Assembly (NCBI GenBank): GCA_012519695.1
Contig: JAAYPT010000013.1
Location: 1-64,000 of the forward strand
DNA: 64,000 bases
Direction of reading: 5' to 3'
Source of the DNA: Clostridiales bacterium
Lineage (GTDB): Bacteria > Bacillota > Clostridia > Lachnospirales > Lachnospiraceae
A program made the translations under genes and the position numbers. Numbering within the stretch: the first letter of the stretch is position 1; the number at the start of each line of letters is the position of its first letter. Below are positions 3,379 to 58,889 of the stretch, piece after piece. The notes beneath the pieces are model-generated. The model did not search any database. It was not told where the DNA came from and was given only the letters and a program-made list of their open reading frames with translations.

Positions 3379-6300
3379 ATGAAATGGACACGCAAATGTG
3401 CGAAGAGAGCTATGGGGCTGCTAACGGCTGCGGTAATGTTGTTCTCTTTTGTGCTGTCTGGGGGAACAACAATGACTGCGAAAGCAGACGGAGGGGAATA
3501 TAAGGGTGCAACAGTGAGTGCAAGTGGTGTTACTTTTTATTATTATGATACTACGAACACACACACAAAGGTTTATATGAAGGGAAGCTGGGATGGAAGC
3601 TGGGGGGCTCATATTCCATTGACAAATGATGGCAATGGTGTTTGGAGTGTAACAGTACCATTTAGCGGTGACGGAGTAACAGGTGTAGAAGCATTTTATG
3701 GCGATGGAACACCGGGAGGAGTAAGTGGTAATACAACAGTTACTTTTGAAAAAGGAACTACATATGCGTACGGATTTGAGGATAATGTAGGTGGAGAGTG
3801 GATTGGTACAGATGATAATAATCCAAAAGTTGGAGGAAATTCTGAAATTGTAGGAAGTCCCGTAATATCCGCAGACGGTGTAAAATTGTATTATTATCCG
3901 GAACATGGAACTTATCCAACAATGACTGTAAAGTATCGTGAAAAAGGAAGCAGTACAGCTTGGGCAGATGCAGCTTCTGTTACAATGAATTTGGATACTA
4001 CCTATACAGCGATTTTATCAGCGACAATTGATACATCTTCTTTAACGAGTGGAAACTATGAGTATAAAATGTATAAAAATGGTACCGAAGTAGCAGATAA
4101 TCTGGTAAAGGAACAAACTTTTAAAGTTTCTAATATTCCGGCAGAAGATCCAAGTGTTAAGAGTCCGGTTGTAAAAGATAATGATGTAACATTTAATTAT
4201 TATGGTCCGACTGCAAATAAAGTAACTGTAAAAGGTGAAATGATAGGATGGGCAGAAAAAGCATTAACAAAAAATGAAGCAACTGGTTATTGGAGTCTTA
4301 CCATTTCCGGAGTAGCAAAAGGAACCTACCAGTATGGATTTATGGTAGATAATAATTGGACAGAAGATAAGCTGAATACAGCTGAAAAAGTTGGCGATAA
4401 TAATGTATTTACAATTACCAATGAATTACAGACAAAAGTAAAGAGTCCGGTAGTAAATGCATGGGGAACAACTTTTAATTATTATGCACCGGATGCAACC
4501 AGAGTTCAGTTGGCAGGAGAACTTACCGGATGGACAGAAGATACAGCAGCAGATATGATTCAGGATGCAGAAGGTTGGTGGACAATTACTATTTCTAACG
4601 CAGCAGCTGGAGATTATGGTTATAAATTTGTGGAAAATGGAGATTTTTCGAATGGATGGAAACAGGACCCATTAAATGCAAGCAGAATGCCAAGCAGCGA
4701 TAACTGTAAAGTAACAGTAAAAGGAACAGAATCTGGAATTAGTCCGGTAATCGAAGGTACTAAGGTGACTTTTGTATATCCGGAAAATCCAAAAACTTCT
4801 GAAAAGGTAAGATTAGCAGGAGATTTGACAACACCTCAGTGGGGTGATAGTGAAGAAGAATTTACCTATAATACAAGTAAAAAACAATGGGAATATACCA
4901 AAACAGTAGCACCGGGAAGCTACGCATATAAATTTATAAAAAATGCAAGTGACTGGATGACAGACCCTGCAAACGAAGAAACTACAGCAGATGGAAATAG
5001 TAAATTGTTAATTGCAGGACTTACAGATACTTCAATTCAGGCAGAAAAAGGTGTAGCAACAAAGTTGCCGGAAACTGTAAAATATTATGCAGGTGATGGT
5101 ACAGAACATCAGGTAAAGGTTACATATTCTTTGCCAAGTGGCGTTACAGGTATTTTTATAAGTGATGGCAATATTACAGTGGAAAAATCTTATACAGGTA
5201 AAAATATTGCAGTAACAATGAAAGCAGGAGAGTTTGAAGCAACATTAACTGTAATACCGGTAGAAGATGTTTACAATTATACGATTTATTATTTTGACAA
5301 GAATCATCAGACAACAGATTCTAGTGACTTGTGGTTGTGGGAAGTAAATGGAGCACCGGGAGCTGCTTATGATTTCACAGAAACAGAAGTATTAGAAGAT
5401 GGAAGAACATGGTTAAAAGCAACAGTTTCTGCTTCTTATACAAATTTCGGAATGATTGCACGTTCTAAAGGAGAATGGAGCTGGCAGGGACCAGATGTTT
5501 ACTATACCAATACAGATAAAAATAAAAATGTAACATTGTATTTGGTTGCAGATGATACAACTGCATATACAACATTGCCAAAGATTACGGAAGCGAAAGA
5601 TCGTTATGCAATGATTGAGTATGTACGTTCTGCTGGTGATTATGATAATTGGTATTTGTATACATGGAACAGCGGTTTTGGAAGCGAAGTAGATATTCCA
5701 CTTACCATTATTAATGGAAAACAGTACTTTAAGGTACCGATTAAAAAGAACACCAAGAGTTTATCCTTTGTTGTCCATAGAAAAGAGGGAGAAGATGCAT
5801 GGGCAGAAAAAGATGGTGGAGACAACAGTCTGTCTACTCCATTAAAACAGACCGTGACAAAAGCTACTTATACTCAGGGACAAGGTATTAGTTATATTTA
5901 TCCGGAAAACATGGGATATAAGTTAGATACCCAAAATGGAAGAGTAGGATTTTTCTATCGTGATGATGACCTGGTATTAGAAGGTAAATTAAATACCTTA
6001 GAAGGAAAAGTTCAGGTTGAAATTGATGGAAATACATATAATATGACCTATGATGCAGATACAGACCGTTTTGTATATTATTATAACAGTCTGACTGAGG
6101 GAGATCATTATTATCGTTTTTGTATTGATGGAAATTACCAGTTAGATGCATATAATGACAGAGTAGAAGAAAGAGCACCATTTGTAAAAGCAACAGATAA
6201 TAATCTTACAAATGCTAAGGGTGCAAATGGTACTTTGGTAGAATATTCTGTTTATACTTATAAAAAGTATGCAGCATCTGCAAGTGCAGAGTTTTCACAG

Positions 6301-8145
6301 AAAACAGTAGATTACACACAAAACTCTGTATTAAAAGTTACAGCAAACAAAGTAGATGATATGGAAGTAAGTGCAGTAACTGCTGATATTTCTGCATTAG
6401 GTGGAAATAGTCAATTTGTAATTGATCCACAGTTAATGGCAGGAACAATTGCAGTAAATGAAAATGTAAAACCGGGAACATATACGATTCCAATCACAGT
6501 AAAGGACCAATATGAAAATGAATATACTACATCTGCAACTATTACAGTAACAGAAAAGACCGGAAATGATTTTGATTGGGATGAAGCGATTATTTATTTT
6601 ATGGTAACAGACCGTTTCTATGATGGAAATACATCCAATAATATAGGTGTAGAGAAAGATAATCCATCTGGATATCATGGAGGAGACTTTGCAGGAGTAA
6701 CACAGAAGTTAGATTATTTAAAAGAGTTAGGAATCAATACAATCTGGATTACTCCAATTGTAGATAATATTGATGATGCACTGACCACAGAAGTTCCAGG
6801 AATTACTTCTCATGGATATCATGGATACTGGGCAAAGGATTTTACAACATTAGATCCAACCCTTGGAACAGAAGCAGAATTCCAGACTTTAATTAGTGAG
6901 GCACACAGCCGTGGCATTAAAATTATGGTAGACGTAGTGCTGAATCATGCAGGTTATAATACAGAATCTGTTTTCGGAGATATGATTCGAAGCAGTGCAG
7001 AAACGGTATCCGGTGATGACCAGTTAGCACCGCTTTCTGGACTTCCGGACTTTGCAACGGAAAAAGCAGAAGTAAGAAATCAGTTAGTTGCATGGCAGAC
7101 AGCATGGATGACAAATTATGATATTGATTACTTCCGTGTAGATACAGTAAAACATGTGGATGATACTACATGGAAAACATTTAAGAACTCTTTGACAGAG
7201 GCAAATCCGGCATTTAAGATGATTGGAGAATATTCCGGTGCAGGATATACTTTTGATGGTGGTCAGTTAAGAACAGGTCAGATGGATTCAATTCTTGACT
7301 TTGATTTTAATGATTTCGGACAGCAGTTTGTAACGGGAAGCATGAGTTCTATTGAAAAGAAGTTAGAGGAAAGAAATAAGACAATTGATAATACAGCAAC
7401 TTTAGGAAACTTCTTAAGCAGTCATGACGAAGATGGATTGGTATATAAGCTGATTAATGAAAATGGAATGACAGAGAAAGAAGCACTGAACAAGATGTTA
7501 GTTGCTGCATCTTTACAGATTACGGCAAAAGGTCAGCCAGTTGTTTATTATGGGGAAGAAATTGGATTGTATGGGGCAAATAATTATCCATATCAGACCA
7601 ACCGATATGATTTTGACTGGAGCAAGGTAACATCTGACAATAAAATCTTGAACCATTATAAGGGACTTTTAGCTGCAAGAAATATATACAGTGAAGTATT
7701 TGCAAAGGGTGAAAGAGTAGGTCTTGGCACAAGTGATGCAGATGGATATGTAGTGTTTGACCGTGTTTATGAGGGACGTCATGTTGTAACTGCATTAAAT
7801 ACTACAGATAAGGCAAAAACAATTACCTTTGATTTGAAGAAGGTAGCAGTAGATGATGTATATACGAATTTGATTACATCTGGATATGGAAACAGCAGTA
7901 AAATTGATGGAACAAAGGTGACACTGACTATTCCGGCAGCATCTGAAGGTGGCACATATATGTTTGCCTATGCAGATAACAAGCAACAGCAGCAGCAACA
8001 GCAGCAACAACAGCAACAAGAAGCAAAACTGGAAAATACCGTAATTAAAACGGGAGATGCTACGCAGGTAGCAGGATTAGTATTGATGGTGTTATCAGCA
8101 GCAGTTGTAATGGCTGAGATAGCGCGTAAAAAGAAATATTGTTAA
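3379..8145 (+). CDS. Surface-anchored multi-modular GH13 amylopullulanase/alpha-amylase
   Basis: This secreted 1588-residue starch enzyme has a signal peptide at 1-36 (cut after AKA). Four or five immunoglobulin-like starch-binding/CBM48-like repeats at about 40-530 begin with SPV(V/I) and have YY and GxYxYxF signatures. Next come a pullulanase-associated CBM41-like module near 635-735 and further beta domains to about 1060. A GH13 catalytic barrel at about 1065-1480 carries DVVLNHA at 1185-1191, nucleophile Asp1255, acid/base Glu1284 and Asp1350. The tail has 12 glutamines (1536-1547), an IKTGD motif (1556-1560), a hydrophobic helix and RKKK, which resembles a degenerate sortase signal. It is similar in plan to the Eubacterium rectale Amy13K type. 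Cleavage of alpha-1,6 versus alpha-1,4 bonds cannot be settled by eye. It shares an operon with the neopullulanase downstream. Confidence 0.9.
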   Translation: MKWTRKCAKRAMGLLTAAVMLFSFVLSGGTTMTAKADGGEYKGATVSASGVTFYYYDTTNTHTKVYMKGSWDGSWGAHIPLTNDGNGVWSVTVPFSGDGVTGVEAFYGDGTPGGVSGNTTVTFEKGTTYAYGFEDNVGGEWIGTDDNNPKVGGNSEIVGSPVISADGVKLYYYPEHGTYPTMTVKYREKGSSTAWADAASVTMNLDTTYTAILSATIDTSSLTSGNYEYKMYKNGTEVADNLVKEQTFKVSNIPAEDPSVKSPVVKDNDVTFNYYGPTANKVTVKGEMIGWAEKALTKNEATGYWSLTISGVAKGTYQYGFMVDNNWTEDKLNTAEKVGDNNVFTITNELQTKVKSPVVNAWGTTFNYYAPDATRVQLAGELTGWTEDTAADMIQDAEGWWTITISNAAAGDYGYKFVENGDFSNGWKQDPLNASRMPSSDNCKVTVKGTESGISPVIEGTKVTFVYPENPKTSEKVRLAGDLTTPQWGDSEEEFTYNTSKKQWEYTKTVAPGSYAYKFIKNASDWMTDPANEETTADGNSKLLIAGLTDTSIQAEKGVATKLPETVKYYAGDGTEHQVKVTYSLPSGVTGIFISDGNITVEKSYTGKNIAVTMKAGEFEATLTVIPVEDVYNYTIYYFDKNHQTTDSSDLWLWEVNGAPGAAYDFTETEVLEDGRTWLKATVSASYTNFGMIARSKGEWSWQGPDVYYTNTDKNKNVTLYLVADDTTAYTTLPKITEAKDRYAMIEYVRSAGDYDNWYLYTWNSGFGSEVDIPLTIINGKQYFKVPIKKNTKSLSFVVHRKEGEDAWAEKDGGDNSLSTPLKQTVTKATYTQGQGISYIYPENMGYKLDTQNGRVGFFYRDDDLVLEGKLNTLEGKVQVEIDGNTYNMTYDADTDRFVYYYNSLTEGDHYYRFCIDGNYQLDAYNDRVEERAPFVKATDNNLTNAKGANGTLVEYSVYTYKKYAASASAEFSQKTVDYTQNSVLKVTANKVDDMEVSAVTADISALGGNSQFVIDPQLMAGTIAVNENVKPGTYTIPITVKDQYENEYTTSATITVTEKTGNDFDWDEAIIYFMVTDRFYDGNTSNNIGVEKDNPSGYHGGDFAGVTQKLDYLKELGINTIWITPIVDNIDDALTTEVPGITSHGYHGYWAKDFTTLDPTLGTEAEFQTLISEAHSRGIKIMVDVVLNHAGYNTESVFGDMIRSSAETVSGDDQLAPLSGLPDFATEKAEVRNQLVAWQTAWMTNYDIDYFRVDTVKHVDDTTWKTFKNSLTEANPAFKMIGEYSGAGYTFDGGQLRTGQMDSILDFDFNDFGQQFVTGSMSSIEKKLEERNKTIDNTATLGNFLSSHDEDGLVYKLINENGMTEKEALNKMLVAASLQITAKGQPVVYYGEEIGLYGANNYPYQTNRYDFDWSKVTSDNKILNHYKGLLAARNIYSEVFAKGERVGLGTSDADGYVVFDRVYEGRHVVTALNTTDKAKTITFDLKKVAVDDVYTNLITSGYGNSSKIDGTKVTLTIPAASEGGTYMFAYADNKQQQQQQQQQQQQEAKLENTVIKTGDATQVAGLVLMVLSAAVVMAEIARKKKYC

Positions 8146-23451: not shown

Positions 23452-23814
23452 ATAAAAAATAGATTTGATGTAGAGTTTTATACAAAAGATAATGGAGAAA
23501 AACCTGCAAAAGAATTTATTTTAAGCCTTGATAAGAAAATGCGAGCTAGAATGTTGGGAATAATCGATATACTAGAAGAAAAGGGAAACTATCTTAGAGA
23601 GCCATATAGTAAATATTTAGAAGACGGAATTTTTGAAATAAGGGTAAAAGTTGGAAATAATATATCAAGAGTATTATATTTTTTCTATTTTGAGAAAAGA
23701 ATAGTTATTACAAATGGATTTATTAAGAAAACCCAAAAAACCCCAAAACAAGAAATAAAATTGGCAAAGACATATCGAAATCATTTCTTAGAAAGGATGG
23801 AACATCATGAGTGA
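23452..23814 (+). CDS. HigB/RelE-like toxin (Gp49 family), apparent ATA start
   Basis: This 120-residue protein matches phage-derived Gp49/HigB-type mRNA interferase toxins: the N-terminal FDVEFYTKDNGEKPAKEF, the GIFEIRVKVGNN core and the RVLYFF-NGFIKKTQKTP region. The first ATG (23539) would remove the conserved first strand. The frame is open back to a TAG at 23434 and holds no ATG, GTG or TTG there, but an ATA at 23452 lies 7 bases after GGGAGG. I therefore place the start at ATA; an ATT at 23515 is less likely. It overlaps the antitoxin gene by 8 bases, in the toxin-first order typical of HigBA. Confidence 0.8.
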   Translation: MKNRFDVEFYTKDNGEKPAKEFILSLDKKMRARMLGIIDILEEKGNYLREPYSKYLEDGIFEIRVKVGNNISRVLYFFYFEKRIVITNGFIKKTQKTPKQEIKLAKTYRNHFLERMEHHE

Positions 23815-24094
23815 ATTTAGAGAATTTTTAAATGAACAGTTACAAGACGAAGAGTTTCAGAAAGAATGGAATGATATTCAGCCGGAAATGGATGTTATTC
23901 GGGCAATTGTGGATGCCAGAATTTCGCAGAATCTTACGCAAAAGGAGCTTGCCAAAAGGACGGGAATTAATCAGGCGGATATTAGCAAGTTAGAAAATGG
24001 AACCAGGAATCCATCATTGAAATTATTAAAACGTCTTGCTGATGGAATGGATATGGTTTTGAAAATTGAGTTTGTACCAAAAGCAAAAGTTTAA
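23807..24094 (+). CDS. HigA-like antitoxin, XRE-family HTH protein
   Basis: This 95-residue protein has a Cro/C1-type helix-turn-helix at about 37-85 (LTQKELAKRTGINQADISKL). The acidic N-terminal half would neutralise the toxin. It probably represses the operon through the palindrome inside the promoter at 23402-23419. The start overlaps the toxin stop, behind GAAAGGATGG. The 5' overlap ensures linked production of both partners. Confidence 0.92.
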   Translation: MSEFREFLNEQLQDEEFQKEWNDIQPEMDVIRAIVDARISQNLTQKELAKRTGINQADISKLENGTRNPSLKLLKRLADGMDMVLKIEFVPKAKV

Positions 24095-24921: not shown

Positions 24922-25758
24922 TTACCGCTTGATAAAGTTTGAATAGTTTTCCCGGAGCTGTTCTAAGTATTCCGCACGTTTTACTGCATCCGGGCATTCC
25001 TCTGTCAATTTCATAATCAATAAATCAACAACCGTCATCGGGGCGACCATGGAATGATATTCATTTGGTTCACCCCGATAACTGTAAAGAAGTATATCCG
25101 CCTGGGTAATTTCCGGAGAAGCAAGAAGGTCTGTAAACAAAATGGTCTTATAGTGAACCTTTTTGGCATGACGGAGTAAAATTTGCACTTCGGATAACAG
25201 GCGGGAATAGCTGAACATAATCACCAGGTCACGACTGCCAAGGTTGGTCATAGTTTCATAGATACCGGAACCGGTGGCAATGGGAGTAAAGGTAAGCCCA
25301 AGGCGGCGACAACGATAAGTTAAAATATCTGCAAGACCAATGGCGGCATCGGTAGCGAAGAAATAAAGATGCTTTGCTGTTAAAATAGTATGTACTGCCT
25401 GGTGAAGTACCTCCGGTTCTAACTTATCCAGTGTGTGCATGATATGGTCTTCGTATTGACTTTTTATATTCTTTAGATGGCTTTCCTCGGCTTGCCAACG
25501 TTTTAAAGCAAATGAAGTTCTGGCAGAAGGGGAGGACTGCTCGGCAAGACGTACAAAATCTTTAAAGTCTTTCATATTTTGAAATCCAATTTTTTCCCAA
25601 AAGCGAGATACCGTAGAGCTGCTTAAGCCCAGGGAGTCTACAAGACTTTCTGTGGTAAGATAGGGAAGATTTCTTTGATTTTTCATCAAATGATCCATAA
25701 TTTTGTAATCTGATTTAGAAAAAGAATCTTTATGTTCCTCATATAATTTTTCAAGCAT
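24922..25758 (-). CDS. RpiR/MurR-family transcriptional regulator
   Basis: This 278-residue regulator has an N-terminal RpiR helix-turn-helix (LTTESLVDSLGLSSSTVSRFWEKIGF) and a C-terminal SIS domain (about 110-250) that binds phosphosugars. The start is placed at 25758, where GGAGG lies 9 bases before the ATG; an ATG at 25800 has no ribosome site and adds 14 atypical residues. It is divergent from the isomerase-transporter-phosphatase operon, the usual place for a local regulator, which suggests that operon handles a sugar phosphate. Confidence 0.93.
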   Translation of the reverse strand: MLEKLYEEHKDSFSKSDYKIMDHLMKNQRNLPYLTTESLVDSLGLSSSTVSRFWEKIGFQNMKDFKDFVRLAEQSSPSARTSFALKRWQAEESHLKNIKSQYEDHIMHTLDKLEPEVLHQAVHTILTAKHLYFFATDAAIGLADILTYRCRRLGLTFTPIATGSGIYETMTNLGSRDLVIMFSYSRLLSEVQILLRHAKKVHYKTILFTDLLASPEITQADILLYSYRGEPNEYHSMVAPMTVVDLLIMKLTEECPDAVKRAEYLEQLRENYSNFIKR

Positions 25759-25995
25759 TTCTTGAAACCTCCAGGTAGAAATTTTTATAATTTTGCTCAT
25801 TTATGGGGCGGTGACTCTATTGGAGCCACCTAGAATAGTTACCTTTATTCTAACAAAATATCTCAAAATTGCAATAAAAATTGCAAAACAATAAAAATGA
25901 AATAAATTTACTCAAAATTTACAAAAGTATATCATTACATTTTACAAAAGAACTCTATTATCAACTCATGACTGAAACAGACGAGGAGGATTCAT
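25759..25995. other. Divergent intergenic region (rpiR-type gene / isomerase operon)
   Basis: This gap is AT-rich and must contain both divergent promoters. On the minus strand TGTTAGAAT (plus 25847-25855) resembles an extended -10 box for the regulator. A small stem GGTG-CTC/GAG-CACC (25810-25830) lies in the regulator's leader. No convincing promoter was found for the plus-strand operon. Confidence 0.4.
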
Positions 25996-26775
25996 ATGTC
26001 AGAGATTTACTTAGGTTCCACTTTGCTGTGGAATGCTTCATTGGAAGGAATATTTTCCTTTATTTACAGCAATGGGCTGGATGGAGTGGAAATGTGGGCA
26101 CAACATTGGTTTGAAAGAGGATATTCCATAGAAGAATATCAAAGGTTGTCAGCACTTTACCCAGTAAAGACAGTAGTTCATAGCTGTAGTTGGGATTTGA
26201 ATCCATCATCTTTGAATGAAAGTATTCGCAAGGCATCCGTTGGAGAAATTGAAAAGTCCATTGACCTGGCAGTGGAATTAAATGCCGATGAAGTTACCGT
26301 TCATCCGGGACATGCAACAGTTGCCGGAAATATGGAGGAATATTATCCGCGAATGCATCAGTCATTACAGGAAATACTGGAGTACGCGAAACAAAAAAAT
26401 ATAGATATTTTGCTGGAAATCATGGAAGAAATTCCAAAAGAATATGCCACTTCAGTAGGTGCTATGAAGAAAATCACACAGGAAATGGAAGATGAATTTT
26501 GTTATACGTTAGACATTGCCCACTGTGAAGGGAAAAAAGAAATTTTCACAGCGTTAGAAGAGGGAAAGCATTTTTCAAAGTTCCACATTAGTAATCGGCA
26601 GGGAAAACATCTTCATACTCCGTTGCCGGAGGGGGATTATGATTTTACAGAACTTCTTCCTATATTAGAGAAATATCAGCTCCCATTTGTAGTAGAAGGA
26701 TTTGATTCAAGCAAAGAATTTTCAGTAGCCAGGAAAAATGTTAATTTTTTAAAGAATTATGGAGGAAAAAAATGA
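25996..26775 (+). CDS. Sugar phosphate isomerase/epimerase family protein (TIM barrel)
   Basis: This 259-residue protein matches the AP-endonuclease-2-like TIM-barrel sugar isomerases/epimerases. Metal-binding positions are suggested by VTVHPGH, DILLEIME, YTLDIAHCEG and FHISNRQG, plus the C-terminal FVVEGF Glu. It should interconvert a sugar or sugar phosphate in the cytoplasm. The start follows GAGGAGG. Its last four bases overlap the start of the binding-protein gene, so it is the first gene of a five-gene operon with the transporter and PHP phosphatase. The exact substrate is unknown. Confidence 0.88.
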   Translation: MSEIYLGSTLLWNASLEGIFSFIYSNGLDGVEMWAQHWFERGYSIEEYQRLSALYPVKTVVHSCSWDLNPSSLNESIRKASVGEIEKSIDLAVELNADEVTVHPGHATVAGNMEEYYPRMHQSLQEILEYAKQKNIDILLEIMEEIPKEYATSVGAMKKITQEMEDEFCYTLDIAHCEGKKEIFTALEEGKHFSKFHISNRQGKHLHTPLPEGDYDFTELLPILEKYQLPFVVEGFDSSKEFSVARKNVNFLKNYGGKK

Positions 26776-27626
26776 AAAAAAGTTTATTGGCAAAAGCAGT
26801 AGCGGTAGTGCTGGTAGCAGCAAGTTTGGCAGGTTGCGGAAATAGTAAGACAGACACAAATCAGGCAGATTCCGTATTGGCAGATGTATTGTTAGTTGCT
26901 GACAGCGTTACATTTGAATCTTTAAAAGAACAGGATTTAATGATGAGTTATGAGTCTCCGGAACTAAAAGGAATTCCGGAAGAATTTATTGATAAAGATC
27001 ACATGTATACAGGAACAAAAGTAATTTCTACCGGTATTATCTATAACACCGATATGGTATCAGAAGCACCAAAAGGATTTGCAGAGCTGGCAAAGGATAC
27101 TTTTAAGGACAATACCATTATGCCAAGTCCATTGTACTCAGGTGCAGCAGCATATAATCTTGGAGTAATGACCAGAAATGATGCATTAGGATGGGATTAT
27201 TATGAAGCATTAAAAGAAAACGGAGTTACTGTTGATAAAGGAAACGGTGCAATTCAAAAATCAGTTGTAGCAGGTGAAAAAGCAGCAGGTGTAATTGTTG
27301 ATTATATGGCAGTTCGTTCAAAACAGGAAGGTGCACCGGTAGAATTTGTATATCCGGAAGAAGGTTCTCCATGTGTAACAGAGCCAATTGGAATTTTAAA
27401 AGATACTAAAAATGAAGAATTAGCAAAGGCATTTGTAGATTATGTTTTATCAGATAAAGGACAGGAATTAGCAGCATCTATCGGTTACACTCCAATAAAA
27501 GAAGGCGTTAAGGCGCCGGAAGGATTAAAGAGTATCAGTGAGTTAAAGACTATGACATATGATATTTATGAGTTATATAAAGCAAGAGAAACAGATAAAG
27601 AGCAGTTTAGCTCCTTGTTCCAGTAA
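26772..27626 (+). CDS. AfuA-like ABC transporter binding lipoprotein, shortened N-terminal lobe
   Basis: This 284-residue lipoprotein (lipobox LAGC, Cys22) matches the iron/hexose-phosphate/2-aminoethylphosphonate binding-protein family from ADVLLVADS onward. Members are normally about 340 residues. Here only about 15 residues separate the lipid cysteine from ADVLL (residue 37), where about 70 are usual. The first beta-alpha-beta unit of the N-lobe, normally a (L/V)xVYxxxxx start, is missing. The frame is intact and the rest is well conserved, which points to an in-frame deletion of about 55 residues. Ligand binding is therefore doubtful. It overlaps the isomerase gene by 4 bases and precedes the fused permease. 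Confidence 0.8.
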   Translation: MKKSLLAKAVAVVLVAASLAGCGNSKTDTNQADSVLADVLLVADSVTFESLKEQDLMMSYESPELKGIPEEFIDKDHMYTGTKVISTGIIYNTDMVSEAPKGFAELAKDTFKDNTIMPSPLYSGAAAYNLGVMTRNDALGWDYYEALKENGVTVDKGNGAIQKSVVAGEKAAGVIVDYMAVRSKQEGAPVEFVYPEEGSPCVTEPIGILKDTKNEELAKAFVDYVLSDKGQELAASIGYTPIKEGVKAPEGLKSISELKTMTYDIYELYKARETDKEQFSSLFQ

Positions 27627-27641
27627 AAGCAGGAGAGACCC

Positions 27642-29387
27642 ATGGAAACGTTAAAAAAAGGAAAAAAGCATGCAATTCACAGTTTATGTTATTTGTTAAT
27701 CATACTGGTATTTATTGCGCCTATTGTGCGGTTGTTTCTCATGAGTCTAAAGTCAGAGGAAGGGTATAGTCTGTGGAACTATGCCCTTCTCCTGCAAGAA
27801 GATAGAACCAGAAAAGCAATTTTAAATACCATTGTGATTGCAGTAGGATCAACTGCCATTGCAGCAATATTAGGCAGCGCATTTGCATTTATTATTGCAT
27901 ATACCAATGTGCGAAGAAAAAGGTTACTGGAATTACTGGTGTTACTTCCATTTATTATTCCATCCTACATCATCACTCTTTCCTGGAGCAGTCTTTTTAG
28001 CCAAAAGGGAATGATTAACCAGACACTTTCAGCTATGGGACTTGGGAAGATTAACGTCTATTCCATAGCAGGTATTATTTTAGTTTTGGGATTTTGTAAT
28101 GTACCTATTGTATATATGAATGTAATTCATATGTTGCGTAAAATACCAACAGATATGGAATGGGCAGCGCGGACTTGTGGTTATGGAATCGGACAGGCGA
28201 TGCTTAAAATCAATTTAGTTCAGGCAATGCCGGCAATTATCAGTGGAAGTATTCTGGCATTTTTAGCAGCGATTGATAACTTTGCTGTTCCGGCATTTTT
28301 AGGAATTTCTTCGGGAATTCCGGTGTTAAGTACTTACATCTATGAAAAGTCTATTAGTTTTGGACCAAATAGCTTTTCTTTAGCGGCTACATTGTCAGTG
28401 ATTTTATCGGTAATTGCAGTAGCGGGAACGTTGGTAGAAGGAATATTTGGAAAAAAGAGTTCTGGAATGGAAAGTATTAAGGAAGATTATTCTGTGCGTA
28501 TTCCGTTAAGTTCAGGGAAACGAAAAGTTTTACAATACGGTGTAATTCTCTTTTTGTGTATCATTAATATTGTGCCGTTGATTTCCATGTTTACCAGCGC
28601 ATTTCAAAAAAATTACGGCGTAAAAATGACCTTAGACCAATTTACCACAGATAATTTCACTGCAATCCTTCAGAATAAAGGTATATTAGATGCAATACGA
28701 AACAGTTTGATGCTTGCCTGTGGTTGTTGCATAATCTGTATTGTCATAGGAACGGCTATTGCTTATCAGAAAGTACGTCATCCGGGAAGAATGATTACTT
28801 TGGTAGAAAAGAGTGCATCTCTTACTTATGCCATTCCGGGAATTGTACTGGCATTATCTATGATTTTTCATTGGGTAGAGCCACTGCCGGGGATTCGCCC
28901 GGGAATTTATGGAACCATTAGTATTTTAATGATAGCCTATGTAACCCGCTATTTAATTTTACAAATAAAGGGAAGTGCAACAGCAATGTTGTCCATTCAT
29001 CCTGCATTAGAGGAAGCTGCCGCAGCATCCGGAAGAAGTGTTTTTGCAGTGTGGGGGAAAATATTGATTCCCTTATTAATTCGACCAGTGTTGTCTAGTA
29101 CCTTTATGATATTTGTTTCAGCATTAACAGAACTGACGCTGTCATCCATGCTTGCGGCGGCAGGAACCAAAACCATTGGTTTAATGATCTTTAATTTTCA
29201 GCAGGCAGGAGATTATAATCTTGCAGCAGCCATGTCAGTGGTAATTGTGGTGTTAGTGCTAACAGGATATTTTCTTATCAATCATAAAAATAGTGAATAT
29301 AAAAAAGTAGAGGAACGTGTATATGAGTCTTTCAATAGAAAATGTAACCAAAAAGTTCAATCAAACATTAGCGTTGGATCATATTAA
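27642..29387 (+). CDS. Fused double-domain ABC permease (AfuB/FbpB-like)
   Basis: This 581-residue membrane protein has two tandem binding-protein-dependent permease domains (about 60-275 and 345-555), each with six spans. The EAA-like loops read MEWAARTCGYGIGQAMLKINL and LEEAAAASGRSVFAVWGKILIP. The plan is that of ferric-ion, aminoethylphosphonate and hexose-phosphate transporters. The last 25 residues run into the next gene, so the reading frames overlap by 65 bases; a C-terminal tail of this kind is unusual. It seems full length, unlike its two partner genes. Confidence 0.88.
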   Translation: METLKKGKKHAIHSLCYLLIILVFIAPIVRLFLMSLKSEEGYSLWNYALLLQEDRTRKAILNTIVIAVGSTAIAAILGSAFAFIIAYTNVRRKRLLELLVLLPFIIPSYIITLSWSSLFSQKGMINQTLSAMGLGKINVYSIAGIILVLGFCNVPIVYMNVIHMLRKIPTDMEWAARTCGYGIGQAMLKINLVQAMPAIISGSILAFLAAIDNFAVPAFLGISSGIPVLSTYIYEKSISFGPNSFSLAATLSVILSVIAVAGTLVEGIFGKKSSGMESIKEDYSVRIPLSSGKRKVLQYGVILFLCIINIVPLISMFTSAFQKNYGVKMTLDQFTTDNFTAILQNKGILDAIRNSLMLACGCCIICIVIGTAIAYQKVRHPGRMITLVEKSASLTYAIPGIVLALSMIFHWVEPLPGIRPGIYGTISILMIAYVTRYLILQIKGSATAMLSIHPALEEAAAASGRSVFAVWGKILIPLLIRPVLSSTFMIFVSALTELTLSSMLAAAGTKTIGLMIFNFQQAGDYNLAAAMSVVIVVLVLTGYFLINHKNSEYKKVEERVYESFNRKCNQKVQSNISVGSY

Positions 29388-30186
29388 TGTTTCCATTAAG
29401 GATTCAGAGTTTATTGCAATTTTAGGACCTTCCGGTTGTGGAAAAACCACATTGCTTCGTACCATTGGTGGATTTATTCAGCCCAGGAAAAAGAAAAAAA
29501 TGGTGGACTATGCGTTAAAGTGTACCGGACTTACGGCATTGGAAAACAGATTGCCGGGGGAATTATCCGGTGGACAACGACAGCGAGTAGCATTGGCAAG
29601 AGCTATTGTAGGAAAGCCATCGGTGCTTCTTATGGATGAGCCGTTAAGTGCATTGGATGCAGAATTAAAAATCAGTATGCGAAAGGAAATTCAAGATATT
29701 CATAAGATGACAGGTGCGACTATTGTATATGTAACTCATGATCAGAGTGAAGCGATGGCAATGGCAGATCGAATCATTATTATGAAGGACGGAAAAATAG
29801 AGCAGATAGGAACACCCAAAGAGATATATTGTCATCCTGCAACGCGGTTTGTGTCTACCTTTGTCAGCAAATGCAATTTAATCAAAGGTAGATGGAACGG
29901 AGACTATTTCCAAGTGTTAAATGAGCCTATCCGGTACCATGACGGTGAAATCGCACCTGTATTTCATCAGGAAGGACTATATCCGGTACGACCGGAAGAA
30001 ATAAGGCTGGTAACACAGGGTGAAGGTATTCCGGGTGTCATAACCAATAAACAGTATAATGGTCGGGAAATACACTATTCGGTGCAGTATGGCGAAGATA
30101 ATTTTACCGTATACACAAGTGCCAATGAAGAATATGAGCCGGGACAAAATATAAAAATGGTAATAGAAAGAAGAGAAGCAGTATGA
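29323..30186 (+). CDS. ABC transporter ATPase (AfuC/PotA-like) lacking the Q-loop region
   Basis: This 287-residue ATPase has Walker A GPSGCGKTT (35-43), signature LSGGQ (81-85), Walker B LLMDEP with Asp105-Glu106, and the switch His139. The span between Walker A and the signature is only about 40 residues; it is about 95 in PotA/FbpC-type ATPases. The sequence jumps from IGGFIQP (48-54) straight to RKKKKMVDYALKC, so the beta subdomain and the Q-loop that contacts the permease are gone, about 55 residues. The frame is open. Such a protein should not couple to the permease. The ATG at 29323 is chosen over a GTG 6 bases earlier. It overlaps the PHP gene by 4 bases. Confidence 0.85.
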   Translation: MSLSIENVTKKFNQTLALDHINVSIKDSEFIAILGPSGCGKTTLLRTIGGFIQPRKKKKMVDYALKCTGLTALENRLPGELSGGQRQRVALARAIVGKPSVLLMDEPLSALDAELKISMRKEIQDIHKMTGATIVYVTHDQSEAMAMADRIIIMKDGKIEQIGTPKEIYCHPATRFVSTFVSKCNLIKGRWNGDYFQVLNEPIRYHDGEIAPVFHQEGLYPVRPEEIRLVTQGEGIPGVITNKQYNGREIHYSVQYGEDNFTVYTSANEEYEPGQNIKMVIERREAV

Positions 30187-30911
30187 AATTATTATTTGAC
30201 CTGCATAGCCACACAGTTGCCAGTGGACATGCGTATGGTACGTTAAAAGAAAATGTGGAAGAGGCAGCGGCAAAGGGATTGAAGATTTTGGGAACCTCAG
30301 ACCATGCAATCAGTATGCCGGGAACGACCAATCCAATCTTTTTTACCAATTACAGAGCAATTCCAGAGGAAATTCAGGGCGTAAAAATATTAAAAGGAAT
30401 TGAAGCAAATGTTATGGATTATCAGGGAACCATTGATGTGGAAGAAAAAATATATCCGGCATTGGACTATGTAATAGCAAGTCTTCATGTTCCTTGTATT
30501 AAGTCAGGAAGTAAAGAAGAGAATACCAGTGCGTTAATTGGAGCAATGAAAAATCCATATTTAAAAATTATCGGACATCCGGATGACAACCGTTATCCCT
30601 TAGATTATGATCGATTGACGGATGCAGCAAAAGAACAGGAAGTGGTATTAGAATTAAATAATTCTTCTTTTGGCCCTGCTTCCGGACGACAGAATGCATG
30701 GGAAAATGACTTGGTATTATTAGAATACTGTAAGAAAAAGGAAGTACCAATTATATTGGGAAGTGATGCGCATATTTTTTGTGATGTAGGATGTTTTGAA
30801 GGCTGTTTAAAAATATTGGAGTATTGCGATTTCCCAAAGGAATTAGTGGTCAATCGTAAGAAAAAAGGATTACTAAAAGTACTGAATCGAGTACCGGAAT
30901 GGCTTCAGTAA
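30183..30911 (+). CDS. PHP-domain phosphatase/hydrolase (YcdX-like)
   Basis: This 242-residue protein has the PHP metal-binding blocks: DLHSHT (6-11), GTSDHA, KGIEANV, ASLHVP, IIGHPDD and GSDAHIFCDVG near the end. These bind a trinuclear metal centre that cleaves phosphate esters, as in YcdX and histidinol phosphatases. No HisK-specific context is present. As the last gene of the isomerase/transporter operon, a role in removing phosphate from an imported or made sugar phosphate is plausible. The start overlaps the ATPase stop (ATGA). Confidence 0.9.
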   Translation: MKLLFDLHSHTVASGHAYGTLKENVEEAAAKGLKILGTSDHAISMPGTTNPIFFTNYRAIPEEIQGVKILKGIEANVMDYQGTIDVEEKIYPALDYVIASLHVPCIKSGSKEENTSALIGAMKNPYLKIIGHPDDNRYPLDYDRLTDAAKEQEVVLELNNSSFGPASGRQNAWENDLVLLEYCKKKEVPIILGSDAHIFCDVGCFEGCLKILEYCDFPKELVVNRKKKGLLKVLNRVPEWLQ

Positions 30912-30943: not shown

Positions 30944-31774
30944 TTAAAGAATTATTTTATGTTTTTTCCGATACGCTCCGGCAGTCATTCCACACTGTTT
31001 CAAAAAGCATTGGGAAAAGTAACTTTGAGAAGAAAATCCGGTAAGCTGTGCAATTTCTCCAATACTGTGGTCGGTATCTGTTAGCAATTCGCAACTGGCT
31101 AAAATTCGTTTCTTTTGCAGATAGCTAATAGGAGAAATACCAAAGGTATTGGTGAAAATGTGCACAAAGTAATATTTGTTCAGGTGCGCAAGTTTTGCCA
31201 GTGCATCCAGAGAGAGGTCTTGCGCATAGTGAGCATCTATATAGTGTTTTATTTTGCTGCATTCATGATGTAGGGTTTGCGTTGGAACAAGATTATAAGA
31301 AAAGTTGTTATAGCGGCTTAGTTGTATCAGAAGAACTTCCAGCAGTTTTTGACAAGCCAGTTCATAATCAGGTTTCTTTTCTGTAATTTCTTTTAAAAGG
31401 GTAGAAAAGTAAAATAGCAAGGTTTGTGTATCGTTTTTACAGTGAAGAATCATGTATTGGGATTGCTGAGAAAAAGAGAACACAACACCATCCACACCGA
31501 GAATCACATATTCCAAAGGTTCTGTGTGAAACGAAATTTCCGTATGGGCTACATTGGGATTCACCAAAATAAGATCGTCTTTTTGGATAGGAATAGTGTC
31601 ATCTTCAATGACAAATTCACCCTTTCCGTTTTTCACATAAAAAAGTTCACAAAAATGATGACTGTGCCTTAAACTGGTCCAGTCTTCTTCATATTTAGAA
31701 AAAGTAACATATAAAAGTCGAGCAGAACTACTGCCTGCGTCAGGGGAAGAAAGATGATATTTTGTATTTCCCAT
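30944..31774 (-). CDS. AraC-family transcriptional regulator with cupin sensor domain
   Basis: This 276-residue regulator has an N-terminal cupin-like sugar-sensing domain (HSHHFCELFYVKNGKGEF, VNPNVAHTE) and a C-terminal pair of AraC helix-turn-helix motifs (DLSLDALAKLAHLNKYYFVHIF and GFSSQSYFSQCFLKQCGMTAGAYR). The ATG at 31774 is preferred because AAAGGAG lies just upstream; an ATG at 31828 would add 18 residues without homology. It is divergent from the GH112 phosphorylase, its likely target. Confidence 0.92.
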   Translation of the reverse strand: MGNTKYHLSSPDAGSSSARLLYVTFSKYEEDWTSLRHSHHFCELFYVKNGKGEFVIEDDTIPIQKDDLILVNPNVAHTEISFHTEPLEYVILGVDGVVFSFSQQSQYMILHCKNDTQTLLFYFSTLLKEITEKKPDYELACQKLLEVLLIQLSRYNNFSYNLVPTQTLHHECSKIKHYIDAHYAQDLSLDALAKLAHLNKYYFVHIFTNTFGISPISYLQKKRILASCELLTDTDHSIGEIAQLTGFSSQSYFSQCFLKQCGMTAGAYRKKHKIIL

Positions 31775-31951
31775 AAGGCTCCTTTCGAAAGAACAAACAG
31801 TTCCCTTGCCGGACGTCTTTGTGTCCAAGCGGTGTCAGTTATGACTGAGTTCATCGTAAGTATCTAAGTTTCTTATAATCCAATGATATTAATATTTTAG
31901 CAAGAAAAGAATAAAATAGCAATATATCTAAAAAACAGCGCAAGATATAAG

Positions 31952-34387: not shown

Positions 34388-35386
34388 ATGAACAAAACAG
34401 AAAACTTAATACTTGAGGCACCGCAGACAGAACGGAAATATAAGGATAAATTATTTCGTTTGGTATTTCGGGAGAAAAAGGAATTGCTTAGTCTGTATAA
34501 TGCAGTAAATGGAACAGACTATAACAATCCGCAGGATCTAGAGGTAAACACACTGGAAAATGCCATTTATATGAATATGAAAAATGACATTTCCTTTGTA
34601 TTTGATGTGGAGTTGAATCTGTATGAGCATCAGTCTACTTATAATCCCAATATGCCGTTGCGAGATTTACTTTATATTGCCAGGCTTTTAGAGCGGATAA
34701 CAACAGACCGTTCCTTATATGGCATATCAATGGTTCAGATACCAACCCCAAGGTTTGTGGTATTTTATAATGGAACGGAGGAACAACCGGAGCGACAGAT
34801 TTTAAAGCTTTCGGATGCGTTTGAAAAGAAAATATCTGAACCGGAGTTAGAGCTAAAAGTATTAATGTTAAATATCAATTTAGGGAAAAATAAAGAATTA
34901 TTGGAAAAGTGTGAAACATTACGAGAATATATGATTTATGTAACAAAGGTGCGGGAATATGCAGCTACAATGAGTATTGATGTGGCTGTAGAACGGGCAG
35001 TCAATGAGTGTATCAAACAGGGAATTTTGCAGGAGTTCCTGCTCAAGTATAAAGCGGAGGCGATTCAAATGAGTATTTTCGAATATGATGAAGAACGGGA
35101 AATGCAGTTAATAAAAGAATCTATGCGGCAGGTGTATTCAAAAGAAGGTCGAGAGGAAGGACGTAAACAGGGGTTAGAAGAAGGTCGAAAAGAAGGTCGA
35201 AAGGAAGGTCGAAAGGAAGGTCGAAAAGAAGGTCGTGTAGAGGGAATTCAGATTTTTATTTTAGACAATCTGGAAGAGAAAATTCCACCAAAACGTATTT
35301 TGGAAAAACTTCAAAAACGATTTCATTTAAATCAGGAACAGGCAGAAATGTATTTTGAAAAATATTCGAAAGAGTCAAACATGTAA
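34388..35386 (+). CDS. Rpn-family PD-(D/E)XK nuclease/transposase-like protein
   Basis: This 332-residue protein matches the Rpn (recombination-promoting nuclease, PF12784-like) family that is abundant in Lachnospiraceae. It shows KYKDKLFRLVF, SLYNAVNGTDY, the nuclease-core FDVELNLYEHQSTYNPNMPLRDLLYIARLLE and VVFYNGT. The C-terminal part carries a Lys-Glu-Gly-Arg repeat (about residues 253-284) encoded by 12-base tandem units. Rpn proteins are DNA endonucleases linked to recombination or phage defence, usually scattered singly through genomes, as here. Confidence 0.9.
   Translation: MNKTENLILEAPQTERKYKDKLFRLVFREKKELLSLYNAVNGTDYNNPQDLEVNTLENAIYMNMKNDISFVFDVELNLYEHQSTYNPNMPLRDLLYIARLLERITTDRSLYGISMVQIPTPRFVVFYNGTEEQPERQILKLSDAFEKKISEPELELKVLMLNINLGKNKELLEKCETLREYMIYVTKVREYAATMSIDVAVERAVNECIKQGILQEFLLKYKAEAIQMSIFEYDEEREMQLIKESMRQVYSKEGREEGRKQGLEEGRKEGRKEGRKEGRKEGRVEGIQIFILDNLEEKIPPKRILEKLQKRFHLNQEQAEMYFEKYSKESNM
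35180..35239 (+). repeat. 12-bp tandem repeat inside the Rpn gene
   Basis: Five copies of a 12-base unit (GAAGGTCGAAAR, last copy diverged) encode the EGRK run of the Rpn protein. In-frame copy number can vary by slippage without breaking the gene. Confidence 0.9.
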
Positions 35387-49132: not shown

Positions 49133-49393
49133 TCAAGCTTTTTGCAGAGAAAAATTTTCTTCCGTAGAATTACAATTTTCGGGATTAAGCTGTTTCACCC
49201 GGGTAAGTAAAAATTTATATCGCATCTGCAAGGCATTTACCTGATAAATGCAACAGTCTATCATATCCGGGTCCATGGCATTTTGAAAATCATCATAAGC
49301 AAGTGCCAAATCATATCTGGCTTTTTCCAGGTCATCTAAAAGTAGAGTGTAAGCAGTGGTATCAGATAACTGCTTTTTCGAACTCTGAAACAT
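49133..49393 (-). CDS. DUF2508 family protein (YaaL-like)
   Basis: This 86-residue protein has the DUF2508 core (LLLDDLEKARYDLALAYDDFQNAMDPDMIDCCIYQVNALQMRYKFLL), a small helical protein whose function is unknown. The ATG at 49393 follows AAAGGAATGGG. A much longer frame in the same register (to 49696) runs through divergent bofA and has no homology, so it is not used. In Bacillus, yaaL and bofA are co-directional next to recR; here the two are divergent. Confidence 0.85.
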   Translation of the reverse strand: MFQSSKKQLSDTTAYTLLLDDLEKARYDLALAYDDFQNAMDPDMIDCCIYQVNALQMRYKFLLTRVKQLNPENCNSTEENFSLQKA

Positions 49394-49534
49394 ATGAATC
49401 CCATTCCTTTCATAATAGCGCTTAAAAGTTTCTTTTATAAAGTATAAGCAGAAAATGGGAAGTCTATACAAAAAGTCATAAATTTTTCCAAAATGTATAT
49501 ATTTTAGAAAAAGAAGATAGCAGGAAAACAAGAA

Positions 49535-49807
49535 ATGGAACAAGAATACGGAATGATAGCAATTGCCGGAATTTGTCTGGTGGTACTTCTTATGGGAATG
49601 ATGAAGAAAAAGGCGAAGGTGGCAGCGGTTTTTTTGAGTCGCGCGGCAGTGGGGGTGGTAGGTATTAGTGTTGTAAATCAGATGCTGGAAACCCAAGGGA
49701 TTGCCATAGCGGTTGGAATAAATCCAGTCAGTGCTTTGACAATCGGAACCCTTGGTATCAGCGGGTTTGCGTTGTTATATGGGATTATGTTGTATGGTTC
49801 TTTGTAA
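49535..49807 (+). CDS. Pro-sigma-K processing inhibitor BofA family protein
   Basis: This 90-residue membrane protein matches BofA: hydrophobic spans at about 5-20 and 60-85, and the GINPVSALTIGTLGISGFALLYGI C-terminal region. In Bacillus BofA holds the SpoIVFB protease inactive in the forespore membrane until sigma-K activation. Its presence suggests spore-forming ancestry. The ATG follows AGCAGGAAAAC. No sporulation genes flank it besides the DUF2508 gene. Confidence 0.88.
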   Translation: MEQEYGMIAIAGICLVVLLMGMMKKKAKVAAVFLSRAAVGVVGISVVNQMLETQGIAIAVGINPVSALTIGTLGISGFALLYGIMLYGSL

Positions 49808-51232: not shown

Positions 51233-52915
51233 ATGAAAAGACGAAGCAAATTAATTGCAGCAATTCTTATTTCTACATTAACCGTTGGAAGTTTTGTGGG
51301 GTGTGGTAGCAGTTCGGAAAAATCTAATCCGGGGGCTACAAGTTCAGGAGAGAGTACAGCCCTTGAAGGAAAAAATGTTTTAAGTGGGGATGAATCATCT
51401 GCCGCAAATGAAAGTGTCACAAATAAAAGAGAGTATAAAAAGGAAATTCATGTGGCAATCAGTGCACCACCAAGCAATTTAGATGCAATGGTAAATGCAG
51501 CATTTTTAACAAGGCAGTTAGTTGGTGGAGGACAGGTGTATGAACAGTTAGTAACATTAGATGGAGATTATAATCCACAGATGGAACTAGCAGAATCATA
51601 TGAGGTTAGTGAGGATAATAAAATTTGGACATATAAATTGAGACAAGGAGTGAAATTTCATGATGGTAGCGAGATGACAGCAGAAGATGTGGTAGCATCT
51701 ATAAACCGTTGGATTGATAAGGTTGCAGTAGCAAAGGCATTATTTGGAGATGCCAGATTTGAAGTTGTAGATGATTATACAGTAAGGGTTGAATTGGTAG
51801 AAGGTTCTAGTGCTGTAAATACAATTTTGGCAGCAACGTCACCATCTTGTGTAATTACAACAAAAGAGGCAATTGATACAGTAAAAGATGATGTATTAAC
51901 AGAATATATAGGTACGGGTCCTTATAAATTTTCTGAATGGGCAACAGACCAGTATATTAAATTTGAAAAATTTGATGATTATGTGCCATATGAAGAAGAA
52001 GGAACCTTTAGTGGATGGTGGGGACACAAAACAGCATATATTGATACAATTTATTATGATATTGTAAAAGATAATTCTACACGAGTAGCCGGATTACAGA
52101 CAGGACAGTATGATATGTTGTATGTTCCGTGTCCATTGGATAATTTTGAACAGTTAAAGGATACATCTGGAACCACTTTAATTCAGGAAAATCGTGGAAA
52201 CTTTATTATGATTTATAATAAAAAAGGTGAGGCTGCTTCCAATAAAGTATTGCGTCAGGCAATCAATAAGGCATTAGATTATGATGAAGTTATGACAGCG
52301 GCTTTTGTTGATTCGAAGTATTATACAATTACACCGAGTGTTATGTACAATGAAAAAAGTAGTTATTATACAGAAGCCGGAACAGAAGCATTTAATCTAA
52401 ATGATCCGGAAGGTGCAAAGAAAATGTTAGAAGAAAGTGGATATGATTTTTCGACACCAATTAAGCTTTTAACACCTACGGATTATCCAGAATACTATAA
52501 TGCTACATTGGATATAGCCAATCAGTTAGAAAAAATTGGACTTACAGTAGAATTAGAATCTATGGATTGGGCATCTTGTCTTTCGGCGAAAGCAGAGGAG
52601 AGTGGTTGGGATGCATATGTAAGTACACAGAGTGAAGTAGCAGTACCAGCAGCATTACCATATCTTTCGGGTGCAAAAGCTTTTGGCTTTCCGGATGATG
52701 AAACAGTAATTTCCTTACAGCATGATGGATTATTTGCAGCAGATGAAGATACCGCAAAGGCTAAATGGGAAGAGTTGCAGACATATTGTTTAACGGACTA
52801 TGTTCCATTTACTTCTTTTGGACCATGGAAATCATATAGTGCAATAGCAGGAGATTATGACATGTCTTTTATGCAGGGTGGAATTATGTGGAATGCAAAG
52901 TTTTATGAAGAATAA
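51233..52915 (+). CDS. Peptide ABC transporter substrate-binding lipoprotein (OppA/DppA-like), copy 1
   Basis: This 560-residue family-5 binding lipoprotein has lipobox VGC with Cys24, a Ser/Gly linker, and the conserved NLDAMV, YEQLVTLD, LAESYEVS, YKLRQGVKFHDGSEMTAEDV and YIGTGPYKFSEW segments. It should bind peptides at the cell surface for the DppBCDF transporter encoded downstream. It is closely collinear with the copy at 54710, including the leader, so the two arose by duplication. The ATG follows GAGGAGGAC. Ligand is unknown; the gamma-glutamyltransferase gene between the copies hints at gamma-glutamyl peptides. Confidence 0.93.
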   Translation: MKRRSKLIAAILISTLTVGSFVGCGSSSEKSNPGATSSGESTALEGKNVLSGDESSAANESVTNKREYKKEIHVAISAPPSNLDAMVNAAFLTRQLVGGGQVYEQLVTLDGDYNPQMELAESYEVSEDNKIWTYKLRQGVKFHDGSEMTAEDVVASINRWIDKVAVAKALFGDARFEVVDDYTVRVELVEGSSAVNTILAATSPSCVITTKEAIDTVKDDVLTEYIGTGPYKFSEWATDQYIKFEKFDDYVPYEEEGTFSGWWGHKTAYIDTIYYDIVKDNSTRVAGLQTGQYDMLYVPCPLDNFEQLKDTSGTTLIQENRGNFIMIYNKKGEAASNKVLRQAINKALDYDEVMTAAFVDSKYYTITPSVMYNEKSSYYTEAGTEAFNLNDPEGAKKMLEESGYDFSTPIKLLTPTDYPEYYNATLDIANQLEKIGLTVELESMDWASCLSAKAEESGWDAYVSTQSEVAVPAALPYLSGAKAFGFPDDETVISLQHDGLFAADEDTAKAKWEELQTYCLTDYVPFTSFGPWKSYSAIAGDYDMSFMQGGIMWNAKFYEE

Positions 52916-52940
52916 ATTTATTACGAAGGAGGAAGTCCAT

Positions 52941-54560: not shown

Positions 54561-54632
54561 TTGTAATTATATAAAGGAATATAAGATGAATAAAATATAG
54601 GATAACCTAAGGTGGATTTTGGGTTAATAAAA

Positions 54633-54674
54633 AGACGTACAAAGATGTAGCAATACATTTTCTGCGTCTTTTTT
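54633..54674 (+). promoter_or_regulatory. Folded leader element, copy 2 (before second binding-protein gene)
   Basis: The outer stem extends to nine pairs (AAAAAGACG with CGTCTTTTT), enclosing ATGTA-GCAA-TACAT and followed by six Ts. Spacing to the start codon is about 36 bases. The core differs from copy 1 at only a few positions, one of which swaps a G-U pair for an A-U pair. Confidence 0.8.
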
Positions 54675-54709
54675 ATAAGCAATAAAAAGAAAAGAGGAGG
54701 AATCACATT

Positions 54710-56389: not shown

Positions 56390-56398
56390 AAAGTAACA

Positions 56399-56456
56399 TA
56401 CAATACTGTTGATGTTACGTATTGTAAGAGACTGGAAAGTTAATTTCCGGTCTCTT
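56399..56456 (+). terminator. Two hairpins after the second binding-protein gene
   Basis: TACAATAC pairs with GTATTGTA (56399-56426), and AGAGACTGGAAA pairs with TTTCCGGTCTCT (56427-56455, one G-U). The second stem has 12 pairs but only a weak T tail, so it could be a terminator or a stabilising structure. Confidence 0.65.
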
Positions 56457-56552
56457 GTGTATCTATAAGATTTTCATATAGAAAAAGAAACAACTATATA
56501 ATTCGAATATATGAAATATATGAAAAAGGTATTAGGCATTTGTTAAGCGGTG

Positions 56553-56561
56553 TGCTATACT
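56553..56561 (+). promoter_or_regulatory. Extended -10 promoter of the P-II gene
   Basis: TGCTATACT is an extended -10 box (TGn-TATACT). TTAGGC 18 bases upstream is a poor -35 box. It lies 31 bases before the P-II start codon and suggests that the P-II and Dpp genes can be transcribed on their own. Confidence 0.45.
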
Positions 56562-56591
56562 TGGTTCAACAATTTAAAGGAGGATTTGTGT

Positions 56592-56933
56592 ATGAAGAAG
56601 ATTACAATGTTTATTAGACCAGAGAAATTAGAGTATGTAAAAAAGATTTTAATTGACAAGTATCAGTGTGGAGGAATGACGGTTTCGAATGTCATGGGAT
56701 GTGGTAACCAAAAAGGTTATAATGAGGAATTTAAAAATATCCGTACCAATGTAAATTTACTTCCGAAGTTAAAGGTAGAGGTATATTCCTTGGATGAAAA
56801 AGTAGAAGGAATTATTGATGAAGTTTGTGAATCGCTTTCCACGGGTATGGCAGGAGACGGAAAGATTTATGTTTCAGATGTTTCTTATGGAGTTCGTATC
56901 AGAACCAAAGAAAGAGTCGGAGAAGACAGCTAA
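56592..56933 (+). CDS. P-II family nitrogen-regulatory protein with shortened T-loop
   Basis: This 113-residue protein matches P-II/GlnB: MKKITMFIRPEKLEYVKKIL, GMTVSNVMGCGNQKG, the LLPKLKVEVYSLDEKVEGIIDEV strand-helix, and the B-loop TGMAGDGKIYVSDV followed by IRTKE, which bind ATP and 2-oxoglutarate. The T-loop between GCGNQKG and LLPKLK is short and lacks the Tyr51 that is uridylylated in many P-II proteins. P-II trimers bind and gate transporters; placed between binding protein and permease genes, this one probably regulates the peptide transporter. The ATG at 56592 follows AAAGGAGG; no shared name is given. Confidence 0.9.
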   Translation: MKKITMFIRPEKLEYVKKILIDKYQCGGMTVSNVMGCGNQKGYNEEFKNIRTNVNLLPKLKVEVYSLDEKVEGIIDEVCESLSTGMAGDGKIYVSDVSYGVRIRTKERVGEDS

Positions 56934-56963
56934 GGGAAAAAGTAATAAGAGATGTAAAATATT

Positions 56964-57006
56964 AAGCGTACAAAGGTGTATGAAACCATTGTTACGCTAT
57001 TTTTTT
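56964..57006 (+). promoter_or_regulatory. Folded leader element, copy 3 (before dppB-type gene)
   Basis: AGCGTA (56965-56970) pairs with TACGCT (56993-56998), then seven Ts. The loop holds CAAAGGTGTATGAAACCATT, similar in layout to copies 1 and 2 but with changed inner arms. It lies between the P-II stop and the ribosome site of the first permease gene. Confidence 0.7.
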
Positions 57007-57033
57007 ACGAAAAATTACTGAGGAGGAAAGAAG

Positions 57034-57978: not shown

Positions 57979-57992
57979 GAGGTGACTGAGGT

Positions 57993-58877: not shown

Positions 58878-58889
58878 GAGGTACATCAT

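Follow-up and report, generated by a model that had tools for sequence, protein, structure and literature searches.

The stretch of DNA that we analyzed (the window) comprises the first 64,000 nucleotides of contig JAAYPT010000013.1 from a Clostridiales bacterium of the family Lachnospiraceae (assembly GCA_012519695.1). We identified in it a six-gene island that consists of a divergent RpiR-type regulator and the genes of an epimerase, a binding lipoprotein, a permease, an ABC ATPase and a PHP phosphoesterase. From their sequences, we take the flanking genes to encode an SGNH-type hydrolase (ending at 24883) and an AraC-type regulator (30944-31828). The operons most closely related to this one occur in genomes of other genera and families: G198 (locus L064), G674 (L074) and G700 (L075), followed by G914 (L108) and G1042 (L109). 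The RpiR/MurR-type regulator (24922-25800, minus strand), assigned by its HTH_6 (36 bits) and SIS (39.9 bits) Pfam domains, forms one end of the island, and an orthologue with 46% identity adjoins the operon of L074 too. The operon itself is on the plus strand and starts with an intact TIM barrel protein resembling sugar-phosphate isomerases/epimerases (25996-26775; Pfam AP_endonuc_2, 97.9 bits), which is 52% identical to, and similar in length to, its L074 counterpart (262 amino acids). It ends with an intact PHP-family phosphoesterase (30183-30911; NF006702, 293.9 bits, above the cut-off of 264) that is 58% identical to the L064 protein and whose start codon overlaps the stop codon of the ATPase gene (30183-30186). 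The fused two-domain permease (27642-29387) is full length, as a preliminary description of the sequence had proposed: it aligns with the L064 permease over 535 columns (residues 9-543, 60% identity, 6 gap positions) and matches positions 5-533 of the 546 in profile TIGR03262 with 178.1 bits, a score below the cut-off of the model. The permease frame overlaps the start of the ATPase gene by 65 bp (29323-29387). The two genes share 4 bp in L064 and in L075, and 29 bp in L074; the permease tail is, therefore, variable in the family.

The two other transporter genes are shortened internally, although both remain open reading frames throughout and both junctions are in frame. In the substrate-binding lipoprotein gene (26772-27626, plus strand), alignments revealed the absence of approximately 50-70 codons at the start of the mature domain. 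Only 12 residues separate the lipobox cysteine from the SV(L/Q)AD motif, compared to 76 in L074 and 77 in L075, the two closest proteins compared, which amounts to a net loss of 64 and 65 codons, respectively. Because the linker varies, the loss can be fixed only within this range of approximately 50-70 codons (roughly 150-210 bp). The codon for Cys22 is at 26835-26837 and homology to L074 resumes at 26859-26871; the junction, which joins the linker to the SVLADVLL strand, is thus within 26838-26870. The protein has 284 amino acids, as opposed to 325-406 in the intact relatives examined. Its first lobe is incomplete, for it lacks the segment of the relatives that runs from YTSQP to RSGTEE, two motifs kept in the four closest intact relatives found (L074, L075, L108 and L109). 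Consistent with this, the Pfam profiles SBP_bac_8, SBP_bac_11 and SBP_bac_1 match the window protein only from profile positions 42-50 onward. SBP_bac_6 also matches it (88.3 bits, gathering cut-off 24.6), yet the profile itself starts near the ADVLL strand (residue 36 lies at profile position 3) and does not cover the missing part.

The ABC ATPase gene (29323-30186, plus strand) has lost codons between the Walker A and signature motifs, as deduced from their spacing. The window protein has 27 residues between GGF and ELSGGQ, where L064, L074 and L075 each have 86; therefore, 59 codons (177 bp) are gone. Similarly, 46 residues separate Walker A from LSGGQ in the window protein, as opposed to 102-106 in eight relatives (L109 among them) and 98 in a ninth (L068). 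The Q-loop motif (VFQS or VFQQ) present in all nine is absent from the window ATPase, as the preliminary description had noted, and its estimate of about 55 missing residues in each protein was close. A search of the organism's own genome with the L064 segment showed homology resuming at 29485, which, together with the alignment, places the junction at about codons 54/55 (~29484/29485, within 29482-29487). Walker A, the signature LSGGQ, Walker B and the H-loop are the motifs of ABC-importer ATPases of the MalK/CysA class, and the translated window protein retains all four (GPSGCGKTT, LSGGQ, LLMDEP and YVTHD). L064 informs about the ATPase loss only, because its contig ends inside the binding protein, and a further locus, L002, about the binding protein only.

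All of the intact relatives compared keep both segments and, judging from the alignments, the lost pieces are as conserved among close relatives as the pieces that were kept. Identical columns account for 34 of 64 in the lost segment of the binding protein and 176 of 283 in the kept part (two relatives), and for 31 of 59 and 139 of 284, respectively, in the ATPase (three relatives). We also searched genomes of the family for similarly short proteins. The binding protein was present in 9 of 397 genomes, including the window's own, with open frames of 336-420 amino acids outside the window. In 200 family genomes, with about 12 candidates scored in each, the shortest ATPase frame apart from the window's had 322 amino acids among the matches listed. 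Hence, no binding protein or ATPase as short as those in the window appeared among the matches listed in these searches, and the shortening of both proteins goes beyond the variation within the family. The organism's genome does encode shorter ABC ATPases, which are other, more distant paralogues, and also full-length MalK-type ATPases, with open frames of 365-380 amino acids on contigs C23, C62 and C104. As a test for pseudogenes, the loss of a conserved segment was found in the alignments, and we infer the functional need for that segment.

The remaining sequence of the two genes is well preserved. Neither has an internal stop, and the residues that are invariant in the other family members aligned are kept at 33 of 35 positions in the binding protein and 65 of 68 in the ATPase. 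The corresponding counts for the intact genes are 44/45 in the permease, 44/48 in the epimerase and 99/115 in the PHP protein, the latter based on only three other members. When we simulated neutral evolution, both genes stayed free of stops in 47% of the runs at 0.01 substitutions per site and in 3% at 0.05. DNA divergence from the nearest congeners is approximately 20%; if the genes are dead, their death would be very recent by comparison. There was no clear sign of faster evolution of the broken genes, as pairwise identities go both ways. For the binding protein, the window and L074 had identities of 0.417 and 0.424 with L065, 0.417 and 0.399 with L066, 0.537 and 0.622 with L075 and, over 47 columns only, 0.596 and 0.830 with L064. 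The window ATPase was as similar to L075 (0.616) as the L074 protein was (0.602), and the intact PHP protein also gave a lower value in the window (0.502 compared to 0.549 for L074, both with L075).

The distribution of the operon is patchy. Of 28 congeners, 25 lacked any match to the binding protein at E<=1e-3, and the other three had only weak ones. The two best congeners, G005 and G023, lack the island at this place. In G005, assembled as a single contig, the hydrolase and AraC-type genes are approximately 2.3 kb apart and the island is absent; in the contig fetched from G023, the flanking genes are present and the island genes have no match. In wider searches, the permease turned up in three genomes among 392 from the order (E<=1e-70) and in three among 391 from the class (E<=1e-110); both counts include the genome that carries the window. 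The binding protein turned up in two among 58 genomes from the family to which G674 belongs (E<=1e-60). We infer from this pattern a horizontal spread of the operon. Base composition does not mark the island as foreign, with a GC content of 38.0% compared to 37.0% and 37.6% in the flanks.

We noted further features elsewhere in the window. Adjoining the island is a pair of small genes (23539-24094), presumably a RelE/HigB-type toxin and an XRE-type antitoxin judging from their sequences, with no congener match at E<=1e-10 in the regions fetched from G005 and G023. The gene at 34388-35386, which we take to encode an Rpn/PD-(D/E)XK-type protein with a run of EGRK repeats, has a 39-residue insertion relative to its G005 copy; in G005, this copy is located between the counterparts of the two island-flanking genes. 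A large surface protein (3379-8145), presumably amylase/pullulanase-like, has a long glutamine run just ahead of a C-terminal anchor-like segment. At 51233-63804, duplicated genes surround one ABC cluster and have no orthologue-like match in the fetched congener regions; their sequences suggest to us oligopeptide-type binding proteins and gamma-glutamyltransferase-like genes.

We examined the assembly, a draft of 111 contigs, for signs that the losses are artifactual. The missing segment of the binding protein was not found elsewhere in the 111 contigs: the search returned the retained part and one weak place on contig C74 (E 0.215). Nor was the missing segment of the ATPase, for which we recovered the retained part and 16 other places encoding ABC ATPases. 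On the contig that carries the window (C63), we scanned 115 ORFs (at least 80 amino acids, overlaps removed), of which 51 had orthologue-like matches with at least 60% identity and at least 70% coverage in the G005 or G023 regions. None of the 51 showed an internal loss of at least 15 residues, and a contig-wide artifact is thus not supported. The scan covers the neighbors only, as the overlap filter removed the ATPase and the other island genes have no congener match, and it could miss losses beside unalignable ends, such as the N-terminus affected in the binding protein. It flagged three ORFs: the one at 34388-35386 and another at 73269-74495, both with insertions in C63, and a third at 49133-49696, whose two matching pieces are 225 codons further apart in G005 and whose first 75 residues look non-coding. 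The latter two fall outside the 51.

Recombination between short repeats, which the preliminary description had offered as one option, found no support in the relatives, and a repeat-driven collapse of the assembly is not indicated either. Exact repeats at the edges of the ATPase break were 6, 7 and 8 bp long in three relatives, lengths that 57, 31 and 7% of random position pairs also reached. Those at the binding-protein edges were 6 and 7 bp in two relatives, here without a random control. Repeats in the window region were short or diverged and none explained the junctions among the 20 direct families, out of 34, that were considered.

Taken together, the evidence leads us to favor, with somewhat better than even confidence, a very recent inactivation of a horizontally spread importer operon, through two internal deletions that arose in this strain or species. 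The first deletion would have taken the initial part of lobe 1 of the binding protein. This lobe forms part of the ligand cleft and closes on the ligand, and the protein would lack a portion of it. The second would have removed from the ATPase the region that follows Walker A, including the Q-loop and a portion of the helical subdomain. In MalK-type ATPases these elements contact the transmembrane domain and couple ATP to the permease, so the ATPase would no longer couple to a permease that is itself full length. With the Q-loop region and part of the cleft lobe gone, we consider the transporter to be very probably dead, as predicted from the sequence. Chance (approximately 1 in 9) may account for the preserved reading frame; alternatively, frameshifts may have been avoided because they would harm the overlapping genes downstream, and selection for translation of the overlapping permease, ATPase and PHP genes is plausible.

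In the preliminary description, two in-frame losses of like size in one operon had been regarded as unlikely by chance. This was overstated for the frame, given a probability of 1/3 x 1/3, and the argument from like size is weak because the size of the binding-protein loss can be given only as a range (roughly 150-210 bp). What is truly odd is that the two large losses are accompanied by neither a stop nor a frameshift. Under neutral decay, small indels and stops usually come first, and on this one point such decay fits poorly with two large in-frame losses and no small lesion. For the same reason we keep as a serious, though unlikely, rival an error of assembly or strain mixture, whereby the organism would have full-length genes from which the draft dropped 177 bp and roughly 150-210 bp. 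Such an error would be in keeping with a draft of 111 contigs and with remaining parts that look alive, free of stops and with their invariant residues kept. However, it would rarely be in frame twice, and the short matches of 6-8 bp at the ATPase (three relatives) and binding-protein edges (two relatives), with no long direct repeat, speak against it, as do the failure to find the missing pieces on other contigs and the absence of losses in the 51 contig genes with congener orthologues.

The deletions could also be real and selected, if loss of the importer was favored and the overlapping downstream genes had to stay translated, so that only in-frame losses were tolerated. The frame of both losses, the intact neighbors and the overlaps between the ATPase stop and PHP start (30183-30186) and between the permease and ATPase genes (65 bp) agree with this scenario, but two events are indistinguishable from chance and a permease kept without a working ATPase and binding protein has no obvious use; we regard it as improbable. 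Even less probable are functional reduced forms, in which the short proteins retain a function, perhaps in sensing or together with an ATPase shared within the genome. The open frames, the well-kept remainder and the full-length MalK-type ATPases on C23, C62 and C104 would allow for them. Nevertheless, the Q-loop region and the conserved YTSQP and RSGTEE motifs are gone, no equally short match was among those listed in the family searches, and sharing an ATPase would leave the binding protein defective. Least probable of all is a stable, selected, reduced assembly that no longer transports and instead senses a ligand or nucleotide while coupled to the permease. Of the four options in the preliminary description, therefore, real decay fits best and assembly error stays, while the functional reduced form is poorly supported.

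Inactivation by recent deletions would make the locus, at most, a clear picture of how gene loss begins in an operon of patchy distribution. It also warns that annotation may take dead genes for living ones if it relies on open frames alone. Should sister strains repeatedly carry in-frame losses only, the locus would allow selection against polarity to be tested in a decaying operon.

The best NCBIfam models for the three transporter parts are those of PhnS2, PhnU2 and PhnT2 (TIGR03261, TIGR03262 and TIGR03265), a putative 2-aminoethylphosphonate importer with which the window operon shares the fused two-domain permease. However, all three parts, the full-length permease included, scored far below the curated equivalog cut-offs (101, 178.1 and 253.9 bits compared to 392.75, 593.25 and 457.7, respectively), which led us to reject membership in that family, and the window's binding protein and ATPase differ further in their internal deletions. 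By analogy with these and the relatives described below, and from the neighboring epimerase, PHP and RpiR genes, we propose that the operon probably encoded an ABC importer nearest to PhnS2/PhnU2/PhnT2 for a phosphorylated organic compound. The sugar-phosphate importer AfuABC (4r72-4r75; PMC4546632) is another relative: the L074 binding protein matches AfuA with an E-value of 7.7e-11, and the epimerase, PHP and RpiR genes suggest phosphate-linked neighbors in the window as well. P5PA, a pyridoxal-5-phosphate binding protein (6wce), is also a sequence relative of the L074 protein (E 2.5e-8), the structure being linked to its publication (PMC8427247) by name. In the PDB, iron-binding proteins match the L074 protein with scores better than or similar to those of AfuA and P5PA. 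As described for AfuA, Ser37 hydrogen-bonds the ligand phosphate, an S37A substitution lowers binding without abolishing it, and His205, Asp206 and Glu229 bind the sugar (PMC4546632). In the alignment of L074 with 4r72, numbered by hand count (offset of 2), the threonine of RSGTEE aligns with Ser37, Asp206 is kept and His205 is not matched; by the same numbering, the loop that holds the counterpart of Ser37 is missing from the window protein. Because S37A only lowered binding in that study, the case for an inactive binding protein rests on the whole segment rather than on this residue. The window genes also have in common with young bacterial pseudogenes (PMC2916853) a recent loss in otherwise well-kept frames, and differ from them in that a single operon bears two large in-frame losses and neither a stop nor a frameshift. 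The event has the appearance of common, recent gene decay, perhaps of an error in the assembly, and not of a novel type of transporter.
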